Shown piece by piece: positions 10,291 through 21,800 of a stretch of 64,000 bases of DNA. The notes below the pieces were generated by a model. That model had not been told where the DNA came from. It ran no database searches and saw nothing but the letters and a program-made list of their open reading frames with translations. The translations under genes and the position numbers were made by a program. This DNA comes from Actinacidiphila alni (GTDB lineage Bacteria > Actinomycetota > Actinomycetes > Streptomycetales > Streptomycetaceae), in contig NZ_FONG01000011.1 in NCBI RefSeq assembly GCF_900112845.1, forward strand, positions 186,001-250,000, written 5' to 3'. Positions within the stretch are counted from its first letter, which is position 1. Each line of letters starts with the position of its first letter.

Positions 10291-10310
10291 GGCCGAACCG
10301 AACCGTGGAT

Positions 10311-10324
10311 GGGCCGGTCGGCCC
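10311..10324. promoter_or_regulatory. DosR/OsdR-like box with extended symmetry
   Basis: GGGCCGGTCGGCCC is flanked by GAT and ATC, giving near-symmetry over 10308-10327. It lies 57 bp before the universal stress gene at 10381 and abuts the truncated end of the alcohol dehydrogenase remnant. Confidence 0.65.
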
Positions 10325-10380
10325 ATCGCCCGGCGCCCCGGACAGCGGCACCGTGGAGGAAAGAGCATCGGGAGGCCGTG

Positions 10381-10890
10381 ATGTCCGAGGACAGCACCGC
10401 GGGCCCCATCGTCGTGGGGATCAGCGGATCACGTTCGTCGCAGGCGGCGTTGCGCTGGGCGGCGGAGCTGGCAAGTGCCGCGCGGGTGCCGCTGATCGTC
10501 GTCCACGCGTGGCAACCGTCCGGCGCCCTCCGCGCGCCCTACGCCCCGGCGGCGGGAGTTCCCACGGAGGAGGACGACCTCCGGGCCGCCCGGCTGGTGC
10601 TGGACACAGCCCTGCGCACCGCCGGGACCGCGGATCTGCACATCGAGGTGCGACCGGTCCTGGTCCGGGGCCGGCCGGTGCCGACGCTCCTGCGGTACGC
10701 GCCGGCCGCGGAGCTCCTGGCGCTCGGCCGCCGCACGGTCCCGGACGACGGCGACCCGCGGCTTGGCCCCGTCGCGCGTGACTGCCTCACCAAGGCGGGC
10801 TGCCCCGTCGTCACCGTGCCGGCGGCCGTCGTCAGGATCCCGCCCGCGCCGACGCCGCCGAAGCGTCGTCCGGTTGTCGCGGGCCGGTGA
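10381..10890 (+). CDS. Single-domain universal stress protein
   Basis: The 169-residue protein is one UspA domain (PIVVGISGSRSSQAALRWAAEL...LLALGRRTVPDDGDPRLGPVA...CPVVTVP) plus a proline-rich tail. The ATP-binding G-x2-G-x9-G-S loop is not conserved, so nucleotide binding is uncertain. The ATG at 10381 follows GGGAGG. The preceding DosR-like box at 10311-10324 suggests hypoxic induction. Its 3' end overlaps the convergent antiporter gene by 59 bp, so the C-terminal PAPTPPKRRPVVAGR tail is encoded opposite the antiporter tail. Overlapping convergent 3' ends can give antisense effects; this is inference. Confidence 0.88.
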   Translation: MSEDSTAGPIVVGISGSRSSQAALRWAAELASAARVPLIVVHAWQPSGALRAPYAPAAGVPTEEDDLRAARLVLDTALRTAGTADLHIEVRPVLVRGRPVPTLLRYAPAAELLALGRRTVPDDGDPRLGPVARDCLTKAGCPVVTVPAAVVRIPPAPTPPKRRPVVAGR

Positions 10891-11995
10891 GGGATGTCGC
10901 GAGGGTGGTGGCCGCGACGGTCACCAGTGCCCCGAACATCAAGGCCGCGGCCTCCCCTGGCTCGAGCAGGTGCAGCTGCGTGCCCAGCGCCGCCGCGGCC
11001 ACGGGCACACCGAGCTGGGCCGAGGTGAGGACACCCACGGCGAAGGGCTGCCCGGTGATCCGCATCGCGGCGTGCACGGCGACCGCGCCCGCCCCCAGAG
11101 CCGCGCCGAGTCCCGCGAAGGCGGGGTGGTGGCCCAAGGCACGCAGATCCAGGGAAGCGCCCAACCACACGAAGAACAAGGGACCGAGAAAACCCTCGGT
11201 GAACGCGAACAACTGCTTCGCCAGACGCCGCGGTTCGCCGATCGCCGAGACCACCAGGCCGAAGGAGAAGCCGGCCAGCATGATCGAGACGTGGGTGCGT
11301 ACGGCGAGGGCAGCCAGCGCGAAGAGCACGATGAGGCTGATCCGCAGTTCCAGTGCGAACCGCCGTTCTTCGGACAGCCGGTGCAACCGCCGCCGGTACC
11401 CGTCACGTTCCAGGCGGCGCAGCACCAGGAACAGCACGGCGGCGCAGACCGTCACCGCGAGCGCGCCGAGGGCAGCCCGCGCCGCGTGCCGCGGGTCGAT
11501 CACCAGGGGCAGTGCGATGATGCACGCGGTGTCGGCGACGGCGACCTGCGGCAGCATCTCCACGATGTGCCGGCCGCCGAGCGACAGCGAGTCGACGATC
11601 GGCAGGATCAGCGCCGCCGACGAGGACGCCATCAGCACCGTGTAGAGGGCGGTGTGCCCGGTGCCGAAGCCCCGGGCGAGAGCGTACGCGGGCGCGACCG
11701 CCAACAGCCCTACGGCCGCGGCGCGGACGACCCCGATGGTCAGCCCGGCCCGCAGCTGCGTGCCGCGTACGGGAACCCTGGCCCCCGCGACGAACATGAT
11801 GAGGGCGAATCCGATGTCCGCGAGGAAGGTGAACGTCCGGTCACCGGCGTCGAGATAGCCGATCACCGTCGGCCCGAGAAGCACCCCGGCCGCCAACTCC
11901 CCCAGCACCACGGGCAGATGCCACTTCTTCGGCAGTGCGAGCAGCGGACCGAGCAGAGCGGCCAGGGACAGAACGGCAAGCACCGTGAAGCTCAC
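10832..11995 (-). CDS. Cation/proton antiporter, CPA2 (KefB/Na-H exchanger) family
   Basis: The 387-residue protein has about 11-12 membrane segments and no soluble regulatory domain. It begins SFTVLAVLSLAALLGPLLAL and contains the conserved LPVVLGELAAGVLLGP motif of CPA2 exchangers. The membrane core includes IGFALIMFVAGARV and FLGPLFFVWLGASLDL. Members swap Na+ or K+ for protons and help pH and ion homeostasis. The usual paired aspartates of CPA2 transporters are altered here, so ion choice cannot be predicted. The start at 11995 is the only good candidate. It diverges from the DoxX gene across a region with a DosR-like box (12183-12196), and its 3' end overlaps the universal stress gene. 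Confidence 0.88.
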   Translation of the reverse strand: MSFTVLAVLSLAALLGPLLALPKKWHLPVVLGELAAGVLLGPTVIGYLDAGDRTFTFLADIGFALIMFVAGARVPVRGTQLRAGLTIGVVRAAAVGLLAVAPAYALARGFGTGHTALYTVLMASSSAALILPIVDSLSLGGRHIVEMLPQVAVADTACIIALPLVIDPRHAARAALGALAVTVCAAVLFLVLRRLERDGYRRRLHRLSEERRFALELRISLIVLFALAALAVRTHVSIMLAGFSFGLVVSAIGEPRRLAKQLFAFTEGFLGPLFFVWLGASLDLRALGHHPAFAGLGAALGAGAVAVHAAMRITGQPFAVGVLTSAQLGVPVAAAALGTQLHLLEPGEAAALMFGALVTVAATTLATSLTGPRQPDDASAASARAGS

Positions 11996-12182
11996 GCGGA
12001 ATCTCCTGGCCCGGCGGTCGGAAAGGCAGCACCACCGTACTCAGCGGCGCCGGGCCCGGACCAGCACCGATGGTCGCACGTACCGGTTCCCCCATCGGGC
12101 GTCGGCCCGTGCCCAGTCGGCCGTGCCGATATCCGCGTTGTAGGCCGCCGTGCGGTCGCGGGTCCTGGCGGGCCCGGAGGAA

Positions 12183-12196
12183 GGGCCGGTCGGCCC
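12183..12196. promoter_or_regulatory. DosR/OsdR-like box between antiporter and DoxX genes
   Basis: GGGCCGGTCGGCCC is an exact copy of the boxes at 1380 and 10311. A weaker dyad GGGTCC-TGGC-GGGCCC is centred 22 bp upstream. It lies in the 296-bp divergent intergenic region, which shows no gene. Confidence 0.6.
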
Positions 12197-12291
12197 CGCG
12201 GATGCGGGCCGCAGGCCCCCAGCGCCACCCACCCGCCCCGCGGGACAGTCATCACGTCACCGAACGACACACCACCCACCAGGGAGCCGTC

Positions 12292-12918
12292 ATGGCCGTC
12301 CACCCCACCACCCGGCAGCACACGGGAATCCACCTCCCTGTCTGGCTCAAGGCGCCCGCCGCCGACCACCAGGACGGCACGACGGCCGTCACCACGACCA
12401 CCGGGGCAGCCGCCAAGTCCCTGGCCGTCCTGCGGATCGCCACCGGCTTCATCTTCCTGTGGGCCTTCCTCGACAAGACCTTCGGCTGGCACTACGCCAC
12501 CGCCTCCGGCAAAGGCTGGACCGACGGCGGCTCCCCCACCAAAGGCTTCCTGTCCGGCGTCTCCGCCGGCCCCCTACAGTCGTTCTTCCACGACATCGCC
12601 GGCAAGGGCTGGACCGACTGGCTGTTCATGCTCGCCCTCCTCGGCATCGGCGCCGCCCTCATGAGCGGCATCGCCCTGCGCCTCACCGCCGCCGCCGGCA
12701 CCATCCTCATGGCCATGATGTGGGCCGCCGAATGGCCCCCCGCCCAGCACCTGTCCACCGGCGAACCGAGCATGTCCTCCAACCCCTTCATGGACTACCA
12801 CTTCCTCTACGCCCTCGCGATGATCGCCTTCGCCCTCACCGCCGCCGGCACCACCTGGGGCCTCGGCCGCCTCTGGAACCGCATCCCCCTCGTCGCCAAA
12901 AACCCCTGGCTCAAGTAA
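12292..12918 (+). CDS. DoxX-family membrane protein
   Basis: The 208-residue protein has four membrane segments (for example SLAVLRIATGFIFLWAFLDK near 45 and LFMLALLGIGAALMSGIALR near 110). The pattern FLDKTFG fits DoxX/DoxD-like proteins, some of which form the membrane part of thiosulfate:quinone oxidoreductase or of a redox complex with SodA. The hydrophilic N-terminus and the loop PPAQHLSTGEPSMSSNPFMDYH are typical of the actinobacterial branch. The ATG at 12292 follows AGGGAG by 6 bp; longer frames are not supported. It lies behind a DosR-like box and is closed by a terminator. A role in membrane redox balance during hypoxia is inferred. Confidence 0.88.
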   Translation: MAVHPTTRQHTGIHLPVWLKAPAADHQDGTTAVTTTTGAAAKSLAVLRIATGFIFLWAFLDKTFGWHYATASGKGWTDGGSPTKGFLSGVSAGPLQSFFHDIAGKGWTDWLFMLALLGIGAALMSGIALRLTAAAGTILMAMMWAAEWPPAQHLSTGEPSMSSNPFMDYHFLYALAMIAFALTAAGTTWGLGRLWNRIPLVAKNPWLK

Positions 12919-12943
12919 CCCCAAGGAGCCGGCAGACCACCCC

Positions 12944-12972
12944 CGGGGCACCGCCACCACAGCGGTGCCCCG
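12944..12972. terminator. Terminator hairpin between DoxX and GAPDH genes
   Basis: A perfect 11-bp stem CGGGGCACCGC / GCGGTGCCCCG with a 7-nt loop follows the DoxX stop codon by about 26 bp. GAPDH may therefore have its own promoter. Confidence 0.75.
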
Positions 12973-13024
12973 AACGCATCACTGGTCCGTACAGGAATCC
13001 GCCACCCGAAAGGAAGCGACAGAC

Positions 13025-14044
13025 ATGACCATCCGCGTCGGAATCAACGGATTCGGCCGCGTGGGACGCAGCTACCTGCGGGCGCTGCTCGCCCGTGAGG
13101 CGGCCCAGGAGACACCCGGCGTCGAGGTGGTGGCGGTCAACGACATCGCCCCGGTCTCCACGCTCGCCCATCTGCTGGAGTACGACTCCACCTTCGGCAG
13201 GCTCCCGGTCGCCGTCACCCACGACGACCGGAGCTTCACCGTGGCCGGCCACCGTATCGCCGTGACCGCCCATCGCGACCCGGGGGCGCTCGCGTGGTCC
13301 GAGGAGGACGTCGACATCGTCGTCGAGTCCACCGGCCGGCTGCGGGCCCGGGACCAGGCGGCCGTCCATCTGAAGGCGGGCGCCGCGAAGGTGCTGATCT
13401 CCGCGCCGGGCAAGGACGTCGACGCCACGCTCGTGATGGGCGTCAACCACACGGAGTACGACCCGGGCCGGGACGACATCGTCTCCAACGCCTCGTGCAC
13501 CACGAACTGCGTGGCGCCGATGGTCAAGGTCCTCCAGGACCGCTTCGGGGTCGAGAGCGGTCTGATGACGACGATCCACGGCTACACCAACGACCAGTCG
13601 CTGCTCGACGGCCCGCACAAGGATCTGCGGCGCGCGCGGTCGGCCGCGCTGAGCATCATCCCGACCAGCACCGGCGCCGCTCGTGCGGTCGGCCTCGTCC
13701 TGCCCGCCCTCGACGGCGCCCTGGACGGGGTCGCGGTGCGCGTACCGGTGGAGGACGGCTCCCTGACCGATCTGACGGTGCTGCTGCGCCGCGCGGTGAC
13801 GGTGGAGGAGGTGAACGCGGCCTTCGCCGAAGCGGCGGACGGCCCGCTGTCCGGCGTCCTGCGCGTCAGCACCGCCCCGATCGTCTCCCGCGACGTCATC
13901 GGCGACCCCGCGTCCTGCGTCCTGGACGCACCGCTGACCCAGGCGCACGGCCGCCTGGTGAAGGTCTTCGGCTGGTACGACAACGAGTGGGGCTACAGCA
14001 ACCGTCTGCTCGACCTGACGGAGTACGTCGCCGCCAGGCTGTGA
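13025..14044 (+). CDS. gap: Glyceraldehyde-3-phosphate dehydrogenase, type I
   Basis: The 339-residue cytoplasmic enzyme oxidises and phosphorylates glyceraldehyde-3-P. The Rossmann start VGINGFGRVGRSYLRA, the motif SNASCTTNCVAP with catalytic Cys158, and the C-terminal WYDNEWGYSNRLLDL are intact. The VNDIA segment after the second strand carries the Asp typical of NAD rather than NADP use. Within the catalytic domain the usual phosphate-binding segments (STGAARAVGLVLP) are present. The ATG at 13025 follows GAAAGGAAG; the longer frame lacks a site. As it lies in a stress cluster and not with pgk/tpi, it is probably a second GAPDH used under stress alongside phosphoketolase. A strong terminator follows. 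Confidence 0.95.
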   Translation: MTIRVGINGFGRVGRSYLRALLAREAAQETPGVEVVAVNDIAPVSTLAHLLEYDSTFGRLPVAVTHDDRSFTVAGHRIAVTAHRDPGALAWSEEDVDIVVESTGRLRARDQAAVHLKAGAAKVLISAPGKDVDATLVMGVNHTEYDPGRDDIVSNASCTTNCVAPMVKVLQDRFGVESGLMTTIHGYTNDQSLLDGPHKDLRRARSAALSIIPTSTGAARAVGLVLPALDGALDGVAVRVPVEDGSLTDLTVLLRRAVTVEEVNAAFAEAADGPLSGVLRVSTAPIVSRDVIGDPASCVLDAPLTQAHGRLVKVFGWYDNEWGYSNRLLDLTEYVAARL

Positions 14045-14067
14045 GCCCCGGCCCGGCACCGTTCATA

Positions 14068-14103
14068 CGGGGTCTTCCCGCACATGGTCGCGGGAAGACC
14101 CCG
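14068..14103. terminator. Terminator hairpin after GAPDH
   Basis: A perfect 13-bp stem CGGGGTCTTCCCG / CGGGAAGACCCCG with a 10-nt loop lies between convergent GAPDH and universal stress genes. Confidence 0.85.
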
Positions 14104-14125
14104 TTCGGGTCGGGGCGCGGTGCCT

Positions 14126-14947
14126 TCAGTGCCGCGGTGCCAGGAGCAGCGGGCAGCGCGTGTGGTGGGCGACCGCGTGCGCGACGCCGCCGAGGCCCCG
14201 GCTCGTACGCGCCTCGCCCCGGCCCACGACCAGCAGGTCCGCGCTGCCCGACGCCCGTACGAGCGCGTCCGCGGGCCCGAACAGCCGCAGGTCCGGCAGC
14301 ACCGCCACCGACGGATATTTGGCGCGCCGGCCGCGCAACGCCTCTTCCAGCAGCTGGAGTTCCCCGTCCTCCCAGTCGGCCCGGTCCTCCTCCACCGGCA
14401 TCACCACCTGCTCGTCGTACGGGGCCGGCAGCCGCCACGCGCCCACCGCCCGCAGCCGCGCCTCCCTGCGTCGCGCCGTCTCGAAGGCGAGGTCGAGCGC
14501 CCGGGCATCGGGGTGGTGGCCGTCGACGCCGACCGCCACCTCGGGCACTCCGCTCCCGCCGGACTCCTCCGGCACGAGCGCCACCGCGCAGGGCGCGTCC
14601 GCAGCGACGCCCAGCGCCACGGATCCCAGGCGCAGCCCGGGGAATCCGCCCGATCCGCGGGTGGCGACCACCAGCAGCTCCGCCCCGGCGCCGACGTCGT
14701 TCAGCACGCGCTCCGGCACTCCGGCGATCTCCCGTGCCACCACGTCGAGCCGCGGATGGCCGCGCCGCACCTCGGCCACCGCCGTCGCCACGCGCCGCCC
14801 GACCGCCGAGCCCGTCCCGTGTCGCCGTGGACTCACGGTCACCACCCGCAGTGCCAGCCCGCGCGCCACCCCCTCGGCCGCCGCCCACCGCAACGCGGCC
14901 GCACTCGCCGCCGACCCGTCGACCCCGGCCACCACGTACCGCGTCAC
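14126..14947 (-). CDS. Tandem-domain universal stress protein
   Basis: The 273-residue product has two UspA domains. Domain 1 opens YVVAGVDGSAASAAALRWAA and has an ATP-type loop ATRGSGGFPGLRLGSV. Domain 2 opens PEVAVGVDGHHPDARALDLA and ends with a shortened loop GRGEARTSRGLGGVAHAVA. I chose the GTG at 14947 because GGGAGGTGG lies just upstream, and the longer frame adds only a glycine/arginine-rich stretch. It is the third stress protein of this family in 6 kb. A DosR-like box is 87 bp upstream (15034-15047). The role is likely ATP-linked dormancy or stress adaptation, by family. Confidence 0.92.
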   Translation of the reverse strand: MTRYVVAGVDGSAASAAALRWAAAEGVARGLALRVVTVSPRRHGTGSAVGRRVATAVAEVRRGHPRLDVVAREIAGVPERVLNDVGAGAELLVVATRGSGGFPGLRLGSVALGVAADAPCAVALVPEESGGSGVPEVAVGVDGHHPDARALDLAFETARRREARLRAVGAWRLPAPYDEQVVMPVEEDRADWEDGELQLLEEALRGRRAKYPSVAVLPDLRLFGPADALVRASGSADLLVVGRGEARTSRGLGGVAHAVAHHTRCPLLLAPRH

Positions 14948-15033
14948 CGTGCCCCACCTCCCGCTGTCGCGCCCACGGCCCGCGCCGAGGAGCTCCCGCC
15001 CCCACACTGCGCCTCACCGCCCGGCCGTCCCAT

Positions 15034-15047
15034 GGGCCGACAGACCC
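15034..15047. promoter_or_regulatory. DosR/OsdR-like box, last in the cluster
   Basis: GGGCCGACAGACCC matches the consensus with one change in the right arm. It precedes the universal stress gene at 14947. No further copy of this motif was seen to the right. Confidence 0.5.
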
Positions 15048-15085
15048 GCGCCCTGCCCCGGCCGGCCCCGCCGCGTCGGACGAGG

Positions 15086-15547
15086 TCAGGCGCTCATGCC
15101 GTAGCCCAACTCCTCGGCCCCGACGTGCCAGAAGGAGTTCTCGTCGGCGACGGCCTCGGGGTCGAGCGCCCCGAACCGTTCCAGCAACGCTTCGGTGAGC
15201 GCGTCGGCGGCCTGCTCGGCCAGGTCCTCGGCCTCGTCCTCGTCCACCTCGTCGCCGGGCCCCTCGTACGCGGCGGCCTCACCAGCGGCCTCCTCATATG
15301 CGCGGTTGAAGGCGACGAACGCCTCGACGCCGGAGTTGACGTACTGGGGCGCGTCGCCCTCCGGCAGACACCACAACGAACCGTCGTCACGCCGGAGGAC
15401 GAGGGCGCTCAGTCCGGAGTCGACCGCGACCACGGCATATCGCGCGCCGCCGACCGTCTTTTCGGTGAAAGGGGCGTCCTGCCACACCCCGGGATACGGG
15501 CAACGAGCGCATCCGGCCAGCAGCGAGGCGATGTCAGCATCATTCAT
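15086..15547 (-). CDS. SUKH-4 family immunity-like protein
   Basis: The 153-residue acidic protein fits the SUKH-4 (SMI1/KNR4-related) family, which includes immunity proteins against secreted nuclease or deaminase toxins. The family pattern is visible in YAVVAVDSGLSALVLRRDDGSLWCLPEG, YVNSGVEAFVAFNRAYEE and the C-terminal DPEAVADENSFWHVGAEELGYG. A run of Asp/Glu (GDEVDEDEAEDLAE) sits in a loop. No toxin gene lies nearby, so it may be an orphan immunity gene or serve another role. The ATG at 15547 has no strong ribosome site in view. It lies between the stress cluster and the ClC gene. Confidence 0.7.
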   Translation of the reverse strand: MNDADIASLLAGCARCPYPGVWQDAPFTEKTVGGARYAVVAVDSGLSALVLRRDDGSLWCLPEGDAPQYVNSGVEAFVAFNRAYEEAAGEAAAYEGPGDEVDEDEAEDLAEQAADALTEALLERFGALDPEAVADENSFWHVGAEELGYGMSA

Positions 15548-15624
15548 GCCGCGAATCTAGCCCGCCCCGTCAGCACTTCCCCCTCCGCCCGCCGGTCCGG
15601 TCGGCGGGCGGGTCCCGTGTCCGG

Positions 15625-17487
15625 TCAACGGGCAGCAGGCACGGTCCCGCGGGCGGCGGTGTGCATGGCGCCGAGGACGGCCTGGTGGGTGATCCAGCCG
15701 ACGAGGCGGTCGTGGCCGGGGTCGAGGACCGGCAGTCCCGCGCCTTCGGCGGTGACCAGGGCGTCGAGCGCGGTGGACAGGTCGGTGCCGGTAGCGACGG
15801 GCCGGGGCAGCTGGGCGATGGTGGCAACGGTGGTGGCGTCGTGGTCGCCGTCGGCGAGGGTCTCGGCGGCGGTGCGGGCGGTGGCGGTGCCGAGGTAGGT
15901 GCCGTCGGCGGCGGTCACCGGCAGGACGCCGTGCGGTGAGCGGGCGAGCGCGCCCGCGGCGCGGGCCAGCGGCATCGCGCCGTCGAGGGCGGTGGGCACC
16001 GGTTCCATGACAGCGTCCACGGTGAGTCCGGCGAGGAACGCGCTGCCCGGCTGCTCGTCGATGTCGATGCCGCGGCGGCGGAGCTTGAGGGTGTAGACGG
16101 TGTCGCGGGACAGTGCCCGGCTGACGCCGGTGGCCAGCACGATCGCGGTCATCAGCGGCAGGATGATGGAGTACTCGCCGGTGAGTTCGAACATGATGAT
16201 CACCGCGGTGATGGGTGCGCGGGCGGCGCCTGCGAAGACCGCGCCCATGCCGATCAGCCCGTACGCGCCGACCGGCCCCGCGGCACCGGGCAGCAGGTGG
16301 TGGGCGGCGGCCCCGTACGCGGCCCCGAGCATCGCGCCCATGAACAGCGACGGCGCGAAGACGCCGCCGGAGCCGCCGATGCCGATGGTCAGGCTGGTGG
16401 CGGCGATCTTCGCGAGCATCAGCAGGAGCAGGAAGCCGATGACGTACCGGCCGCCGATCGCGTCCTCCAGGACGGGGTAGCCGACGCCGTACATCTGCGG
16501 CAGCGCCAGCAGCAGCCCACCGAGCAGCAGGCCGCCGACGGCGGGGCGGGCCCATTCGGGGCCGCGCCACGCGAAGTCGCAGGCGTCCTCGACCAGATAC
16601 AGCACCCGGGTGAAACCGACCCCGGCGGCGCCGGCCAGTACGCCGAGCAGTGCGAAGAGCAGGTATTCCGACAGGTGCGTGACCTGGAAGGCGGGCGGGT
16701 GCAGGAAGGGGGCGTCGCCGAACGCGGCACGGCCGATGACGCTGGAGGTGACCGAGGCCAGCACCACCATGCCGAACGACTCGGCGGTGAAATCCCGCAG
16801 GATCAGCTCCATCGCGAAGAACACCCCGGCCAGCGGCGCGTTGAAGGTGGCCGCGATGCCGCCCGCCGCACCGCAGGCGACCAGCACCCGCATCCGGTCC
16901 TCGGCGACCCTCACCAGGCCGCCCAGCGACGAGCCGAGCGCGGAGCCGATCTGCACGATCGGCCCCTCGCGTCCCACCGATCCGCCGCCGCCGATGCACA
17001 GCGCGGAGGCCAGCGACTTGACGACCGCGACCTGCGGGGCGATCCGGCCGCCGCGCCGGGCGACGGCGTACATCACCTCCGGTACCCCGTGGCCGCGCGC
17101 CTCCTTGGCGAAGCGCTGCACCAGCGGCCCGTACACCAGGCCCGCCGCCACCGGCGCGAGCAGCACGAACCACGGTCCCAGCCACGGCACATGCGCGTTG
17201 GCGACCCGGCCGGCGGCGGAGTAGTCCGCGTGCCCGGACAGGACGTGCGTGAAGGTCTCGATCAGCCACCGGAAGCCGATCGCGCCGAGACCGGCGCCCG
17301 ATCCGACCAGCAGCGCCAGGACGAGCAGGCCGCCCTTCGTCTCCCGCAGCGCGGGGAGCACGGCCGCGGCTCCGTGCCGCAGGCGCGGCGCGCCGGCCGG
17401 GACTTCGCCGACCGGCGGCTCGGGGCGGGCCTTCGTGGCGGCTTCCGCGGGGCGTACGGGATCGGCGGCGTCGGCTGACTTCGGCAT
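15625..17487 (-). CDS. ClC-family chloride channel/transporter with C-terminal CBS pair
   Basis: The 620-residue membrane protein keeps the chloride-path motifs: GHGVPEVMYA (usual GSGIPE), GGGGSVGREGP with the gating Glu, and GGSGGVFAPSLFMGA. It has about ten helices between residues 45 and 430 and ends with a CBS pair (VDAVMEPVPTAL near 490). It probably moves chloride, with proton exchange if the gating Glu works as in E. coli ClC. The ATG at 17487 is preceded directly by TTGCATAATGCAAAA, with no ribosome site. The CATAAT hexamer lies 6 bp before the ATG, suggesting a leaderless mRNA. The same sequence is a palindrome shared with the lipoprotein gene, so the divergent MarR protein probably represses this gene. 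Confidence 0.92.
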   Translation of the reverse strand: MPKSADAADPVRPAEAATKARPEPPVGEVPAGAPRLRHGAAAVLPALRETKGGLLVLALLVGSGAGLGAIGFRWLIETFTHVLSGHADYSAAGRVANAHVPWLGPWFVLLAPVAAGLVYGPLVQRFAKEARGHGVPEVMYAVARRGGRIAPQVAVVKSLASALCIGGGGSVGREGPIVQIGSALGSSLGGLVRVAEDRMRVLVACGAAGGIAATFNAPLAGVFFAMELILRDFTAESFGMVVLASVTSSVIGRAAFGDAPFLHPPAFQVTHLSEYLLFALLGVLAGAAGVGFTRVLYLVEDACDFAWRGPEWARPAVGGLLLGGLLLALPQMYGVGYPVLEDAIGGRYVIGFLLLLMLAKIAATSLTIGIGGSGGVFAPSLFMGAMLGAAYGAAAHHLLPGAAGPVGAYGLIGMGAVFAGAARAPITAVIIMFELTGEYSIILPLMTAIVLATGVSRALSRDTVYTLKLRRRGIDIDEQPGSAFLAGLTVDAVMEPVPTALDGAMPLARAAGALARSPHGVLPVTAADGTYLGTATARTAAETLADGDHDATTVATIAQLPRPVATGTDLSTALDALVTAEGAGLPVLDPGHDRLVGWITHQAVLGAMHTAARGTVPAAR

Positions 17488-17489
17488 TT

Positions 17490-17524
17490 TTGCATTATGC
17501 AATACAAACCCTTGCCTTGTGCAA
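17490..17524. promoter_or_regulatory. Double MarR-type operator overlapping the ClC promoter
   Basis: TTGCATTATGCAA (17490-17502) is a perfect palindrome. TTGCCTTGTGCAA (17512-17524) is a second TTGC-N5-GCAA copy exactly 22 bp away. On the minus strand the first contains CATAAT, a good -10 box 6 bp before the ClC ATG. The region also serves the divergent MarR gene. Confidence 0.75.
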
Positions 17525-17584
17525 AATACCTGGCCGCGGACTTCCGTCCCGGACTTGTCAGTGCGAGGCGGTAGAAAGGGGCGC

Positions 17585-18118
17585 ATGCCGAAGCGTGCGC
17601 CCAGCGCAGTCGAGACCCCGCAGCACCGCAAGCCCCACGCGGAGGCGGCCGTCGGGAGCGCCGACGAGGTCGTCACCGCCGTACTCACCGCCTCGCGCCT
17701 GCTGGTGTCGGTCTCGGCACGCTCGCTGGCGGCCGTCGAGGAAGCGCTGACGCTGCCCCAGTTCCGGATGCTGGTCGTGCTGGACAGCCGGGGCGCGATG
17801 AACATCTCGCGGCTGGGCGAGCACCTGGACGTCATCCCGTCCACCGCGATGCGCATGGTCGACCGGCTCGTCGCCGCCGGCATGCTCGGCCGCGAGCCCC
17901 GGCCCGACAACCGGCGCGAGATCCTGATCGACCTGACCGCCAAGGGCCGTGGCGTCGTACGCGAGGCCACCGAACGCCGCCGCGCCGAGATCGCCCGCAT
18001 CGTCGGCGCGATGCCCGCCGCCCAGCGCACCGCTCTGGTCCGGGCCCTCCAGGCGTTCACCGACGCGGGCGACGAACCCCCCGCACCGGGCCGGTCGAGC
18101 GCCGACGTCGGCTGGTGA
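17585..18118 (+). CDS. MarR-family transcriptional regulator
   Basis: The 177-residue protein has a winged helix-turn-helix (LPQFRMLVVLDSRGAMNISRLGEHLDVIPSTAMRMVDRLVAAGML) and the beta-wing REPRPDNRREILIDLT. MarR proteins bind palindromes as dimers and usually respond to small aromatic or oxidising ligands. The ATG at 17585 follows GAAAGGGG. It diverges from the ClC gene and is upstream of a lipoprotein gene. Both neighbours carry a matching palindrome (17490-17524 and 18193-18208), which strongly suggests that these are its operators and that it also controls itself. No conserved cysteine pair is seen, so direct thiol sensing is unlikely. Confidence 0.92.
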   Translation: MPKRAPSAVETPQHRKPHAEAAVGSADEVVTAVLTASRLLVSVSARSLAAVEEALTLPQFRMLVVLDSRGAMNISRLGEHLDVIPSTAMRMVDRLVAAGMLGREPRPDNRREILIDLTAKGRGVVREATERRRAEIARIVGAMPAAQRTALVRALQAFTDAGDEPPAPGRSSADVGW

Positions 18119-18192
18119 CCGGCGGCGTTGCCGGTCCCCGCCCGACCGCGGCACCGGCCACCGAGGGGCGGCGGCCGGGCCGCCCTCGCGCT

Positions 18193-18208
18193 TTGGCATC
18201 ATGCAAAG
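18193..18208 (+). promoter_or_regulatory. MarR-type operator fused to -10 box and start codon
   Basis: TTGGCATCATGCAAAG matches the ClC operator with few changes. CATCAT lies 6 bp before the ATG at 18209, so transcription would start on the first base of the codon. The layout CATNAT-GCAAAR-ATG is the same as at the ClC gene. Confidence 0.7.
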
Positions 18209-18715
18209 ATGCCCCGCACCCGAGTCGGTCCCCGCTCCTGGCACCTGATCACCATCTCCGCGGCGCTCGCCCTGTCGGCAACCGCCTGCGCGCGCTCCGA
18301 CACGTCACCGCCCGAACCCGCTCCCTCCACCTCTGACGTTCCGGGGCGCGTCGACATCCGGGCGGGCGATGTCGACCTGACCATCAGCCACGCCACGGCG
18401 ACGCTCGATTCCGCCGGCAACGGAACACTGACGATGGTCGTCCACAACGGCAGCGGGGTTCCCGACCACCTCGACATGGTCGCCACCCCCGACGGCGGTC
18501 GCGGCGCCCTGACCGGCGCCGCCAAAGGCACCGGCACGATGACCGACGCCGGCATCCTCATCCCGCCCGGCGGCACCGTCACCTTCGGCGGCACGGGCCC
18601 CACCGTCCGGCTCACCCACACCCGCGGCATCACCGCCGGCCGCACCCTGCCCACCAACCTCGAATTCGGCGTCGCACGGCTGGTCCACCTCACAGCCGTC
18701 GTGACGGCGTCGTAG
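18209..18715 (+). CDS. Probable secreted lipoprotein, copper-chaperone-like beta-sandwich
   Basis: The 168-residue protein has a signal sequence (RSWHLITISAALALSATAC) ending in a weak lipobox, with lipidated Cys near residue 27. A linker rich in Ser/Pro and a beta-sandwich domain follow. The domain resembles PCuAC/DUF461 proteins in layout (LTMVVHNGSGVPDHLDMVATP, ILIPPGGTVTFGGTGPTVRLTHT), but the usual H-x10-M-x21-H-x-M copper motif is not complete, so metal binding is doubtful. There is no ribosome site and the -10-like CATCAT is 6 bp upstream, so leaderless translation is likely. The shared operator couples it to the MarR protein and the ClC gene, suggesting an ion or metal role at the cell surface. 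Confidence 0.75.
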   Translation: MPRTRVGPRSWHLITISAALALSATACARSDTSPPEPAPSTSDVPGRVDIRAGDVDLTISHATATLDSAGNGTLTMVVHNGSGVPDHLDMVATPDGGRGALTGAAKGTGTMTDAGILIPPGGTVTFGGTGPTVRLTHTRGITAGRTLPTNLEFGVARLVHLTAVVTAS

Positions 18716-18790
18716 GACGCCGACCTGTTCCGTAGCCGGACGGGACACGGACAGCCTCTCGGTTTTCCTCCGCCTCCTCGAACGATGGAC

Positions 18791-18818
18791 GGCGGCACCC
18801 CTCGCAAGGGGTGCCGCC
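18791..18818. terminator. Bidirectional terminator between lipoprotein and GH35 genes
   Basis: A perfect 12-bp stem GGCGGCACCCCT / AGGGGTGCCGCC with loop CGCA lies between convergent stop codons. Confidence 0.85.
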
Positions 18819-18839
18819 GCGCGCCGGTCCGGGGCCGGG

Positions 18840-21800
18840 TCAGCCGCAGTGGAGGCGGGCGTCGGCCCAGTCGGCGTGGTCGAGGCCGTTGTTGTCGCCG
18901 CCGTCGCCGACCAGCAGGTCGACGTAGTCGGCGCCGGTCACGTCGACGTTCAGGTCGACCGGGGCAGAGTCGGCCCTGAGCACGGCCGTGGTCTCCTTCG
19001 GCACTCCGTCGGCGAGGACGGTGAAGGTGACGGAGCCGCCGCCGTTGCTCTCGGCGTCGATGCCGACCGTCGCGGTGAAGGCGGTGCACTGCCCGCCGGT
19101 GAAGACCGTGACGTCGGAGACGGAATTGGTGCCGATCCCCTTGGCGTACTGCTGCCCGCCGACGGTGATCGGCCTGCCGTCGCCCGGTGCCTGCTCACCG
19201 TTGGACGTGTCGCGCTCCACCGGTCCCCAGCCGTTGGTGGCGGTGAACGGGAGGTCGCTGACGTAGGCCGTGCCGCTCGGCGCGGGCGGCGGCACCGTCA
19301 CCGTCTGCCCGTCGCTCACCTCGCGCCCGTCCAGACCGGCGGTGGCCACCAGGACGCTGCCCCACGGCCGGTTCGGGTCGGTCGAGGTCCGGGCGGTCAC
19401 CGTCCAGGTCACCCGACGTTCCTCGCCGGGCGTGATCCGGCCGAGCGGGACCGTGCCTGGGCCGTCGAGCCGCCAGCCGTCCGGCACCTTCAAGGTCACC
19501 CGGGCGGACCGGACGGCGGGCCGGCCCTTCGGCACGGACACGGTCGCGGTCACCTCGGCGCCCGTGCCGGGCGTCATGGTGTCCGGCGCGGTCAGCCGCA
19601 CCTGCGCGGGAGCGGCCGGTTCGGCGTAGCGGTGTGCGTCGTAGGCCGGGGACGCGACCGGCGACACGGGTACGCCACCGCGCAGGTTGGCCTGCGCCAC
19701 CAGCGACACCCGGCCGAGACCGGAGGTGTCGTCGTTCGACCACACGGCCAGGGCCAGGGTGTTGCGGCCGTCCGGCCGCAGCAGTCCTGCGGGCAGCGGG
19801 AAGTCGTGCTGCGGGCCGACGTCGTTGACGTACAGGCCCATGTTCCAGCCGTTGAGGTAGATCTGGACGCGGTAGTGCTTGCCGAGGTCGTCGGTGAAGC
19901 GCAGGGCGACCGGTACGTCCTGGTCCTTGGGGACAGCGGGGTTGAACTGCGTGCGGTACCAGGTGACTCCGGGGGTGCTGTGCGCGGCGGGCAGCGTGGC
20001 GTGCCGCCATGATCCGTCGGGGTAGCCGGGCAGGGTCGCGCCGTCGCGTTCGCCGGACAGGCCACCGGTGTTGAGCGGTCCGCGGACCGGGTCGACCGGG
20101 TCCTCACCGCCGCGGCCGCCCTGGATCCGCCAGGTGACCGCGGCGGTCGAGCCGCTGAGCCGGGCGCTGGTCAGGCCGCGGACGGCCATGCCGGTGCCTT
20201 CGTTGTGGCCCATGTTGGCCACCAGCACCGCCAGCACATTGTCCGTGCCCGGGCGCAGCGCGTCCTTGGGCAGGTCGAAGGTGTGCGCGTCGTTCGCGGT
20301 GCCGAGACAGCGGCCGTTGAGCCAGGCCGCGTACTGGCCGGTGGAGTTCCCGGTCTGGGCGGCGAGCGCGATGCCCGTCTCCGTGCCGGTCGCGGTGAAG
20401 TGCCCGCGGTACCAGACGTCGCCGGCGTGGAAGCCGTAGTCGTCGCTGTAGAGCACGGGGACGCCGGCGGCGCCGTTCGGGTTGTCGGTGCCGGTGCGGT
20501 CGGCGATCCGCCAGGAGGAGTCGTCGTAGCCCGCGGCCGTCTCCGGGCTGCCCGGTGCGGTGCGCCAGTCGAGCGTCGGCATGGTCACCGGACGCGGGCC
20601 GTCCAGCCGCAGGTCGGTCCGTCCGCCTCGTACGGGACGGCCGTTCCAGGTGACCCGGGTCAGCGCGGACGGCGCCCACAGCGACAGCGTTGTCGGGGCG
20701 TCGGTGTCACCGGTCAGCGCCAGCGTGCCGTGGTCGGCGGTGCCGGTGCGGACCAGTTCGGGTCCGCGGGCCAGGACCGGTCCCGCGGAGGTGTCCTCGC
20801 GCCAGAACCGCTTGGCGGTGTCGGTGTCGGCGAGCAGCAGGTCGGCCGGCGGCCGGCCGCCGCCGGAGATCCGTACCTCGGTGAGGCCGCCGTGGACGTA
20901 GTTCAGCCGCAGGTCGCCGCGGGCGGCGTCCCAGGTCGCCTTGGCGCTGCCGGACCGCACCTGGACCGTGGGCCTGGACGCGTAGCGCAGTACGGTCTCG
21001 CCGTCGTCGCCCTTGGGCGCGTACAGCACCGCGGTGTCGGTGCCGTCGATGGTCGCCCGGGTCATCAGCTGGGACGTGGAGTAGACCAGCTTCTGGCCGC
21101 CGAAGGCGTAGTCGGCCAGCAGCATCTTGGCGTCGCGGCCGTCGACGGCCAGCGACGTGCCCGGCTCCTGCGGCACGCTCGGGTAGAAGTCGGCGCCGGG
21201 TGCGGGTGGTACGTCCACCGCGTCGAGCGTGCTGTAGGCGCCGGCCGACTTGGCGTTCTTGCGCCCGGTGACGGTCAGCGTCAGGGTGTGCTCGCCGTCC
21301 GACAGGCCGTCGGCACGGTAGAGGGTCTGCTGGGTCTGCTTGGTGGCGGAGTACTCGTCCACGTCGGCGACCTTCTTGCCGTCGATGGACACTTCGGTGA
21401 TGCCGTGGTTGAAGTCGCGGAAGCCGATCCACCGCACCGAGGGGCCGGTGAAGGTCACCGACACGCTGTCGCCGGTGTGTTCGCTCCATGACGCGGTCTG
21501 CCGGAAGGCGACCTGGCCGTCGTAGTGCGACCAGCCCGTGCCGCCGTAGTGCACCGCGGCATCGGTGTCGTCATGGGTGAAGCCGGTGCGGTCGCCGAGG
21601 TCGACGGTCATATGGGTCCGCTGCGGGGTGTCGGAGGTGCCGTCAGCCTGCCGGAGCACGTACAGCTGCGTCTTGTCGTCCGGGTTGACCCGGCCCTTGA
21701 TCCACAGGTCCGGATTGGTCTGGGCGGCGCCGGGCAGTGTGTCGGTCTTGGCGAGCGACGGTACGGCCGCAAGCAGGTAGCCGGTCAGCTTCTGCTGGGC

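Follow-up and report, generated by a model that had tools for sequence, protein, structure and literature searches.

How might a single regulator control two genes whose messages appear to begin at the start codon itself? The question is raised by a locus of Actinacidiphila alni in which a marR gene on the plus strand lies between a divergent gene for a ClC-type chloride transporter, on the minus strand, and a downstream lipoprotein gene, on the plus strand, with a 13-base-pair (bp) palindrome directly before the start codons of both neighbors. We analyzed a 64,000-nucleotide (nt) window, the whole stretch of DNA under study, which is part of contig C9 of an 8.27-Mb genome (G000) in 49 contigs; G+C content around the locus is 70-76%. 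Judging from its sequence, the locus is probably a small autoregulated MarR repressor unit acting over leaderless ClC and lipoprotein promoters, and the part of this reading that concerns the operators and the leaderless starts is very probably correct.

Results

The two predicted leaderless genes share the same organization at their 5' ends. The ClC gene (15625..17487, minus strand, 620 amino acids) is predicted to start at the ATG at 17487-17485, and the minus strand 5' of it reads TTGCATAATGCAA AA ATG, so that putative operator 1 (17490..17502), an exact match to the palindrome TTGCATNATGCAA, ends 2 nt before the start codon. This is the sole exact copy in the genome, and its position is kept in relatives. 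Inside it lies the -10 element CATAAT (17494..17499, minus strand), separated from the ATG by 6 nt. The lipoprotein gene (18209..18715, plus strand, 168 amino acids; ATG 18209-18211) is preceded on the plus strand by TGGCATCATGCAA AG ATG. Here putative operator 3 (18194..18206) carries one mismatch, again ends 2 nt before the ATG, and contains the -10-like hexamer CATCAT (18197..18202, plus strand, read from the sequence), giving CATCAT-GCAAAG-ATG. The original prediction had described both genes as beginning with CATNAT-GCAAAR-ATG, and a direct reading bears out its letters and coordinates. Its claim that the -10 hexamer sits inside the palindrome also holds at both genes, with the mismatch and a weak CATCAT on the lipoprotein side. 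Putative operator 2, TTGCACAAGGCAA (17512..17524), has two mismatches and is offset by 22 bp from operator 1; its TTGCAC (17524-17519) occupies the place of a -35 element, with 19 bp between it and CATAAT, and the whole ClC promoter reads TTGCAC-19 bp-CATAAT-GCAAAA-ATG. A scan of 17000-18900 for sigma-70-like promoters returned a single match, on the ClC strand, which ends in CATAAT, 7 nt ahead of the first base of the ATG (mean of 0.1 matches on shuffled sequence). The same scan of this interval gave no match at the lipoprotein promoter, where no -35 box was seen either.

These sites are rare. Exactly three positions in the window match TTGCATNATGCAA with at most two mismatches, compared with a mean of 0.11 and a maximum of 1 in 100 shuffles. 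Across the whole genome, matches with at most one mismatch occur in only two places, both flanking marR and 704 bp apart; the reversed-pattern control gave one place, and the numbers expected from base composition are 0.016 for exact sites and 0.97 for sites at up to one mismatch, against 1 and 2 places observed. The degenerate form of the motif, TTGCAYNRTGCAA, matches four places in the genome when one mismatch is allowed, three of them at this locus, and since its reversed control matches eight, only the clustering of this form is unusual, not its number.

We then asked whether the two genes have ribosome sites, using the free energy of pairing between the 19 nt upstream of each start and the 16S tail. 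The ClC and lipoprotein starts gave +1.9 and -0.9 kcal/mol, in agreement with the original prediction that neither gene has a ribosome site, whereas marR (17585..18118, plus strand, 177 amino acids), which by eye has the ribosome site GAAAGGGG at 17574-17581, gave -11.2 kcal/mol; the median over eight marR genes is -10.55 kcal/mol. A -10 element 6-7 nt before the start combined with no ribosome site, as expected of a leaderless gene, is thus found at ClC, while the -10 element of the lipoprotein gene is weaker.

Searching genomes for the pattern, as the original prediction had proposed, recovered it in 27 distinct ClC 5' regions and at 8 of 11 distinct lipoprotein loci. The ClC set comprises distinct 5' regions that have the palindrome with at most one mismatch and a recognizable ClC frame, loci such as L189, whose N-terminal part has no LSGH.DY-like stretch, being left out. 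We call a gene fused when its start codon follows the palindrome at a distance of 2 or 3 nt (+2 or +3). In the 27 fused ClC regions an ATG or GTG stands at +2 in 23 and at +3 in 4. Another 15 ClC regions start further down, and one region, L099, is ambiguous and stands in both lists: it has two sites, and its GTG at +2 shares the frame of a downstream ATG preceded by a ribosome site. Among the lipoprotein loci, for which matches of fewer than 70 residues were left out (L064, L112), the eight fused ones have their start at +2, and in six of these the left arm of the palindrome is TGG or TCG. In a histogram of 146 oriented sites, from which sites near locus ends and duplicate contexts had been dropped, ATG or GTG (RTG) peaks at +2 (23 sites) once the palindrome's own ATG at -6 is set aside. 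Coding-like open frames number 16 at +2, 6 at +19, 2 at +5, 1 at +7 and 1 at -1 (binomial P = 7e-9, uncorrected for kinship). Moreover, the fused clc/marR arrangement reaches another family, with a variant operator: in L189 (genus g51, family f18) the ClC ATG lies 2 nt after TTGTATGGTGCAA on the clc strand, and this ClC protein, 71% identical over 417 residues, is encoded divergently from a MarR that is 59% identical to that of the window. Start fusion was also considered at FAD monooxygenase-type genes (L170, L171) and at the lipoprotein-like L124:6885, which has no Pfam match; by eye, their starts probably lie further downstream, and we therefore claim fusion only for the ClC and lipoprotein genes.

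The unfused ClC genes start 18-26 nt downstream of the same palindrome and have a ribosome site. For this group we used, among the in-frame starts, the one with the lowest pairing energy, and left out L099. Their median pairing energy is -12.05 kcal/mol (n = 14), as against +1.9 kcal/mol in the fused group (n = 26; Mann-Whitney P = 2e-7), a split that defines two clear classes of ClC gene under one palindrome. The unfused set comes mostly from Streptomyces and other Streptomycetaceae and includes two genomes of the window's genus (L016 and L017, from G019 and G020). By eye, five of the 14 leadered clc promoters have an RTG at +2 that is out of frame with ClC; in L094, L109 and L111 this frame is six codons long, its TGA overlaps the ClC start codon, and the ribosome site lies inside it. 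The six-codon frame could be either a leader peptide or a relic of a leaderless start.

What is the second copy at clc? An offset scan of 21 fused promoters found 22 bp to be the best distance for a second match, with a mean of 2.33 mismatches out of 8 compared with 4.38 at the next best, whereas the unfused group has no preferred offset (best mean 4.53). A distance of 22 bp is about two turns of B-DNA. The second copy 22 bp away that the original prediction described is present at 17512-17524, but both of its halves (TTGC and GCAA) are kept in only 12 of the 27 fused ClC promoters; a TTG at the -35 position (18 or 19 bp) is kept in 18 of the 27. We read operator 2 as a weak operator that may double as the -35 element and from which MarR could govern its own gene.

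Which regulator, then, would recognize the palindrome? We surveyed 35 genomes of the genus, including that of A. alni, and 297 genomes of the family from 17 genera. The exact motif occurs once each in 9 of the 35 genus genomes (none in the reversed control), and all nine are among the 17 genomes with a close relative of MarR (Fisher P = 3e-4). In the family survey, where a MarR relative was defined by a match at E 1e-30 or better, 46 of the 297 genomes have the motif as searched and 43 of these 46 carry a MarR relative, compared with 90 of 297 overall (Fisher P = 5e-23; because related genomes are not independent, this P value and that of the genus sample are too small). The reversed control hit one of the 297 genomes. 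The pattern used in this survey ends in V and misses sites whose last base is T, which is why G000 itself scores 0. The motif genomes span 9 of the 17 genera, and those with MarR span 7; in the three without MarR, the site contexts look unrelated by eye. Of 77 sites in the family, 73 are on the same contig as MarR, 72 within 30 kb and 50 within 5 kb. At the protein level, 103 of 110 close MarRs among the loci retrieved have the helix stretch PSTAMRM, whereas none of the 10 distant ones does.

The link extends in part beyond the family. Scanning 330 bp upstream of MarR at 18 loci from other families, we found TTGCAYNRTGCAA with at most one mismatch at five (L197, which is exact, L189, L181, L201 and L203) and with two mismatches at four (L191, L199, L200, L204); the remaining nine have nothing better than three mismatches within these 330 bp. 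At L198, TTGCACAGTGCAA lies about 0.7 kb upstream. The form TAGCACTATGCAA is common to L181, L201 and L203, three of nine loci of one genus in another family, where it lies 84-162 bp upstream of MarR. By eye, the gene divergent from MarR is FAD-monooxygenase-like in L181 and L201 and quinone-reductase-like in L203; L193 and L195 have a methyltransferase-like gene in the divergent position and no site. Genes for a SpoIIE-type phosphatase, an FAD monooxygenase-type protein and an F420H2-dependent quinone reductase likewise have, in relatives, an upstream site that differs from TTGCAYNRTGCAA at no more than one position. Thus, the small chloride/lipoprotein unit of the original prediction stands insofar as the palindrome is tied to the MarR lineage and keeps a fixed distance at both genes, but in relatives the palindrome precedes other genes too.

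Profile searches are consistent with the gene assignments. The ClC protein matches the Voltage_CLC domain (PF00654, E 2.5e-99) and, weakly, a CBS domain, and its translation contains a GREGP stretch with a glutamate that we take to be the gating glutamate. Members of the ClC family act either as exchangers of protons and chloride or as chloride channels. The MarR winged-helix domain (PF01047) scores 53.9 bits against a cut-off of 24.6 (E 1.6e-14). By eye, the lipoprotein translation has a signal sequence and a lipobox-like ATAC. Its PCu(A)C-like domain is marginal (PF04314, 29.5 bits where the cut-off is 29.4), the profile has no match at E 0.001 to the orthologue in L111, and the His/Met copper ligands of PCu(A)C proteins are absent by eye from the lipoprotein translations; a copper role for this protein is neither supported nor excluded. 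The ClC frame is open far 5' of the ATG, forming an 811-amino-acid open reading frame (window 15625-18060, minus strand), so that automatic annotation could pick the wrong start. By eye, the translations from 10300-15550 of the window look like a stress cluster, with universal-stress-like, cation-antiporter-like and DoxX-like proteins and a GAPDH-like gene.

The closest relative of the window's MarR in the PDB is Rv1404 of Mycobacterium tuberculosis (2nyx; E 6.4e-42, residues 22-167), nearer in sequence than any other solved MarR, the next match having E 1.6e-12. The genome of A. alni has 30 hits to this MarR with an E value of at most 0.001, one of them a paralogue encoded on a different contig, with 63% identity over residues 25-177. 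The lineage has a second member in this genome at G000:C2:87230-87688 (L123), which is 57% identical over its length; an L-lactate permease gene is about 3 kb away, and genome-wide motif scans found no site of this operator on the contig of L123. The MarR of the window has no cysteine, nor do 106 of 110 close MarRs in the translated stretch, and no position conserved in 95% of the close MarRs is His or Cys, which argues against an OhrR-like thiol sensor or an AdcR-like metal sensor.

Discussion

In the mechanism we propose, a MarR dimer would bind the 13-bp palindrome. In front of both clc and the lipoprotein gene, the -10 hexamer lies within this palindrome, and only 2 nt separate the palindrome from the ATG, the predicted transcription start. 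Bound MarR would cover the -10 element together with the start point and so exclude RNA polymerase from the leaderless promoter. Upstream at clc, the weaker operator 2 would overlap the -35 position, and since it also lies in the upstream region of marR, it would let MarR repress its own gene. In the presence of an inducer, MarR would release the DNA and both leaderless mRNAs would be made together.

MarR repressors that cover leaderless promoters are already known. In PMC3469484, ohrR of Chromobacterium violaceum is described as leaderless and transcribed from its ATG, with an operator that overlaps the -10 and -35 elements and an OhrR footprint from -8 to -50; X. campestris and S. coelicolor are cited there as having the same start. 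OhrR thus shares with the MarR described here the family and an operator over a promoter that is leaderless, here by prediction. It differs in that OhrR is a cysteine redox sensor, whereas this MarR has no cysteine; that the OhrR footprint leaves the start codon outside, whereas bound MarR here would cover the start point; and that the leaderless gene there encodes the repressor itself, whereas here the targets are predicted to be leaderless and marR has a ribosome site. Another actinobacterial MarR, CrtR of Corynebacterium glutamicum, is likewise encoded divergently from its target, with a site over the promoter and a small local regulon (PMC5401885). The crtR mRNA is reported to be leaderless and the target crtE has a 114-nt leader, unlike the ClC and lipoprotein targets predicted here to be leaderless. 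Leaderless genes are common in these bacteria: in S. coelicolor, leaderless mRNA arises from about 21% of primary starts (PMC4895711), and in bacteria with leaderless genes, of which actinobacteria are among the richest, TANNNT stands about 12 bp ahead of the start codon (PMC3160421). The promoters described here have the same -10 distance and likewise no ribosome site, and differ in placing the -10 element inside a repressor palindrome at a fixed distance from the start.

Several observations weigh against our reading, in addition to the kinship among genomes that makes the P values too small. The CATCAT of the lipoprotein promoter is a weak -10 box. Three lipoprotein loci depart from the pattern: L169 has no site, L113 has a +2 ATG that is out of frame with the homologous part, and L117 has three mismatches, its core and +2 ATG being kept. 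In the histogram, RTG is raised also at +5 (17), +7 (14) and -1 (14), offsets with few coding-like frames (2, 1 and 1, respectively). By eye, 10 of the 15 unfused ClC promoters (L017, L066, L094, L099, L111, L112 and L168-L171) have TTGACW 4 nt upstream of the palindrome, a spacing that makes no normal -35/-10 pair with CATAAT. As many as 47 of the 90 MarR-bearing family genomes are without the motif as searched, G000 being among these only for the last letter of the pattern, which means that operators drift or that the regulator has other sites, and PSTAMRM is kept also in many relatives in which no site was found. None of 11 Actinomadura loci has a site near MarR; only L092 has one within two mismatches of TTGCATNATGCAA, 2 kb away. 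Either the MarR of the window or the L123 paralogue, whose contig has no site, could be the one that binds. Finally, PMC10312376 counts Rv1404 as one of the regulators for which more than 50 promoter binding sites have been reported, unlike a two-gene unit.

Other explanations of the palindrome have to be weighed against these data. It is conceivable, if unlikely, that the palindrome is an operator at genes that are not leaderless, with transcription starting upstream and a 5' leader translated without a ribosome site or from an in-frame TTG. Such a TTG, at the first base of the palindrome, is open in most of the listed +2 ClC loci, and the weak CATCAT of the lipoprotein promoter would also suit this explanation. 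Yet the +3 ATG of 4 of the 27 fused ClC loci is out of frame with that TTG, which excludes it as a start there; the TGG or TCG that opens the palindrome in six of eight fused lipoprotein loci is not a start codon; no ribosome site is found; the sole promoter-like match of the interval scanned ends in the palindrome; and the share of leaderless starts in S. coelicolor cited above makes such genes unexceptional. That the operator belongs to another regulator, with MarR as a mere neighbor, seems improbable: the genome does hold 30 MarR matches, one of them the 63%-identical paralogue, but 43 of 46 motif genomes carry the lineage, 72 of 77 sites are no more than 30 kb away from one of its members, and its recognition-helix stretch is nearly constant. 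Much less credible still is an mRNA hairpin (UUGCA-UAA-UGCAA) in place of a DNA operator. An inverted repeat does adjoin the start codon, but the stem is short, clc has an imperfect tandem copy at 22 bp, the outer base is changed on one side only (TGGCAT), the palindrome would remain untranscribed at a leaderless gene, and the element is linked to a family of DNA-binding proteins; for the stem, the tandem copy, the one-sided change and the link to MarR we rejected this explanation.

The inducer of the proposed MarR unit is a more delicate matter. The original prediction had suggested a response to chloride, a guess from one gene, and a proton or acid role fits better given the close relative Rv1404. 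In passages citing Healy et al. 2016, Rv1404 acts in acid stress on rv1403c and rv1405c at pH 5.5, with phoP also required (PMC5936775), regulates the genes next to it as well as the response to acid (PMC13002591), and raises acid tolerance (PMC6536590); these citing passages give no operator for it. The two proteins are alike in that the MarR gene is cited as controlling adjacent genes in one case and lies next to its putative targets in the other. They differ in the helix, PSATGRM in Rv1404 and PSTAMRM here, and in the targets, two methyltransferases being cited for Rv1404, whereas a ClC and a lipoprotein gene flank marR here. From the relationship to Rv1404 and from the proton/chloride chemistry of the ClC family, we infer acid or a related proton/anion stress as the inducer, and we tentatively prefer acid to chloride, by analogy and at somewhat less than an even chance. 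Some carriers of the system are named as acid-soil taxa (Actinacidiphila, Streptacidiphilus, S. acidipaludis) and others are not. An electrophile, a quinone, an antibiotic or copper in place of acid stands at close to an even chance: the sites before an F420H2-dependent quinone reductase and an FAD monooxygenase-type gene in relatives make an electrophile or quinone signal a live rival, and the marginal PCu(A)C match would suit copper. The pH 5.5 action cited for Rv1404 (PMC5936775, phoP being required as well) speaks against these signals, as do lipoprotein translations in which the His/Met ligands are not seen by eye and a MarR lineage that, with no cysteine in the translated stretch of 106 of 110 close members and no conserved His or Cys, seems neither OhrR-like nor AdcR-like.

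Among the matches listed in the open-access literature, no publication on the motif or on a MarR-ClC unit was found, and the publications that contain the letters TTGCATTATGCAA concern, by title, mammalian-cell topics. Nor did these matches include the operator, the regulon, the fixed geometry at two target genes or the split of one gene into leaderless and leadered forms. It is tempting, if speculative, to regard the three-in-one element of palindrome, -10 hexamer and start at +2 or +3, which is kept across genera and into another family and would control ClC and in part the lipoprotein, while other lineages (Streptomyces and two genomes of the same genus) are leadered under the same palindrome, as the mark of a so far unreported regulon in which MarRs of the Rv1404 type would respond to acid and connect the sensing of pH with proton/chloride transport.

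Our analysis gives a widespread actinobacterial MarR lineage a probable operator, a target set and a recognition helix. Annotation may assign fused genes the wrong start, given a start codon that lacks a ribosome site and a frame that stays open further upstream. Finally, the same gene under the same palindrome, leaderless-looking in some genomes and leadered in related ones, offers a natural experiment on leaderless translation.

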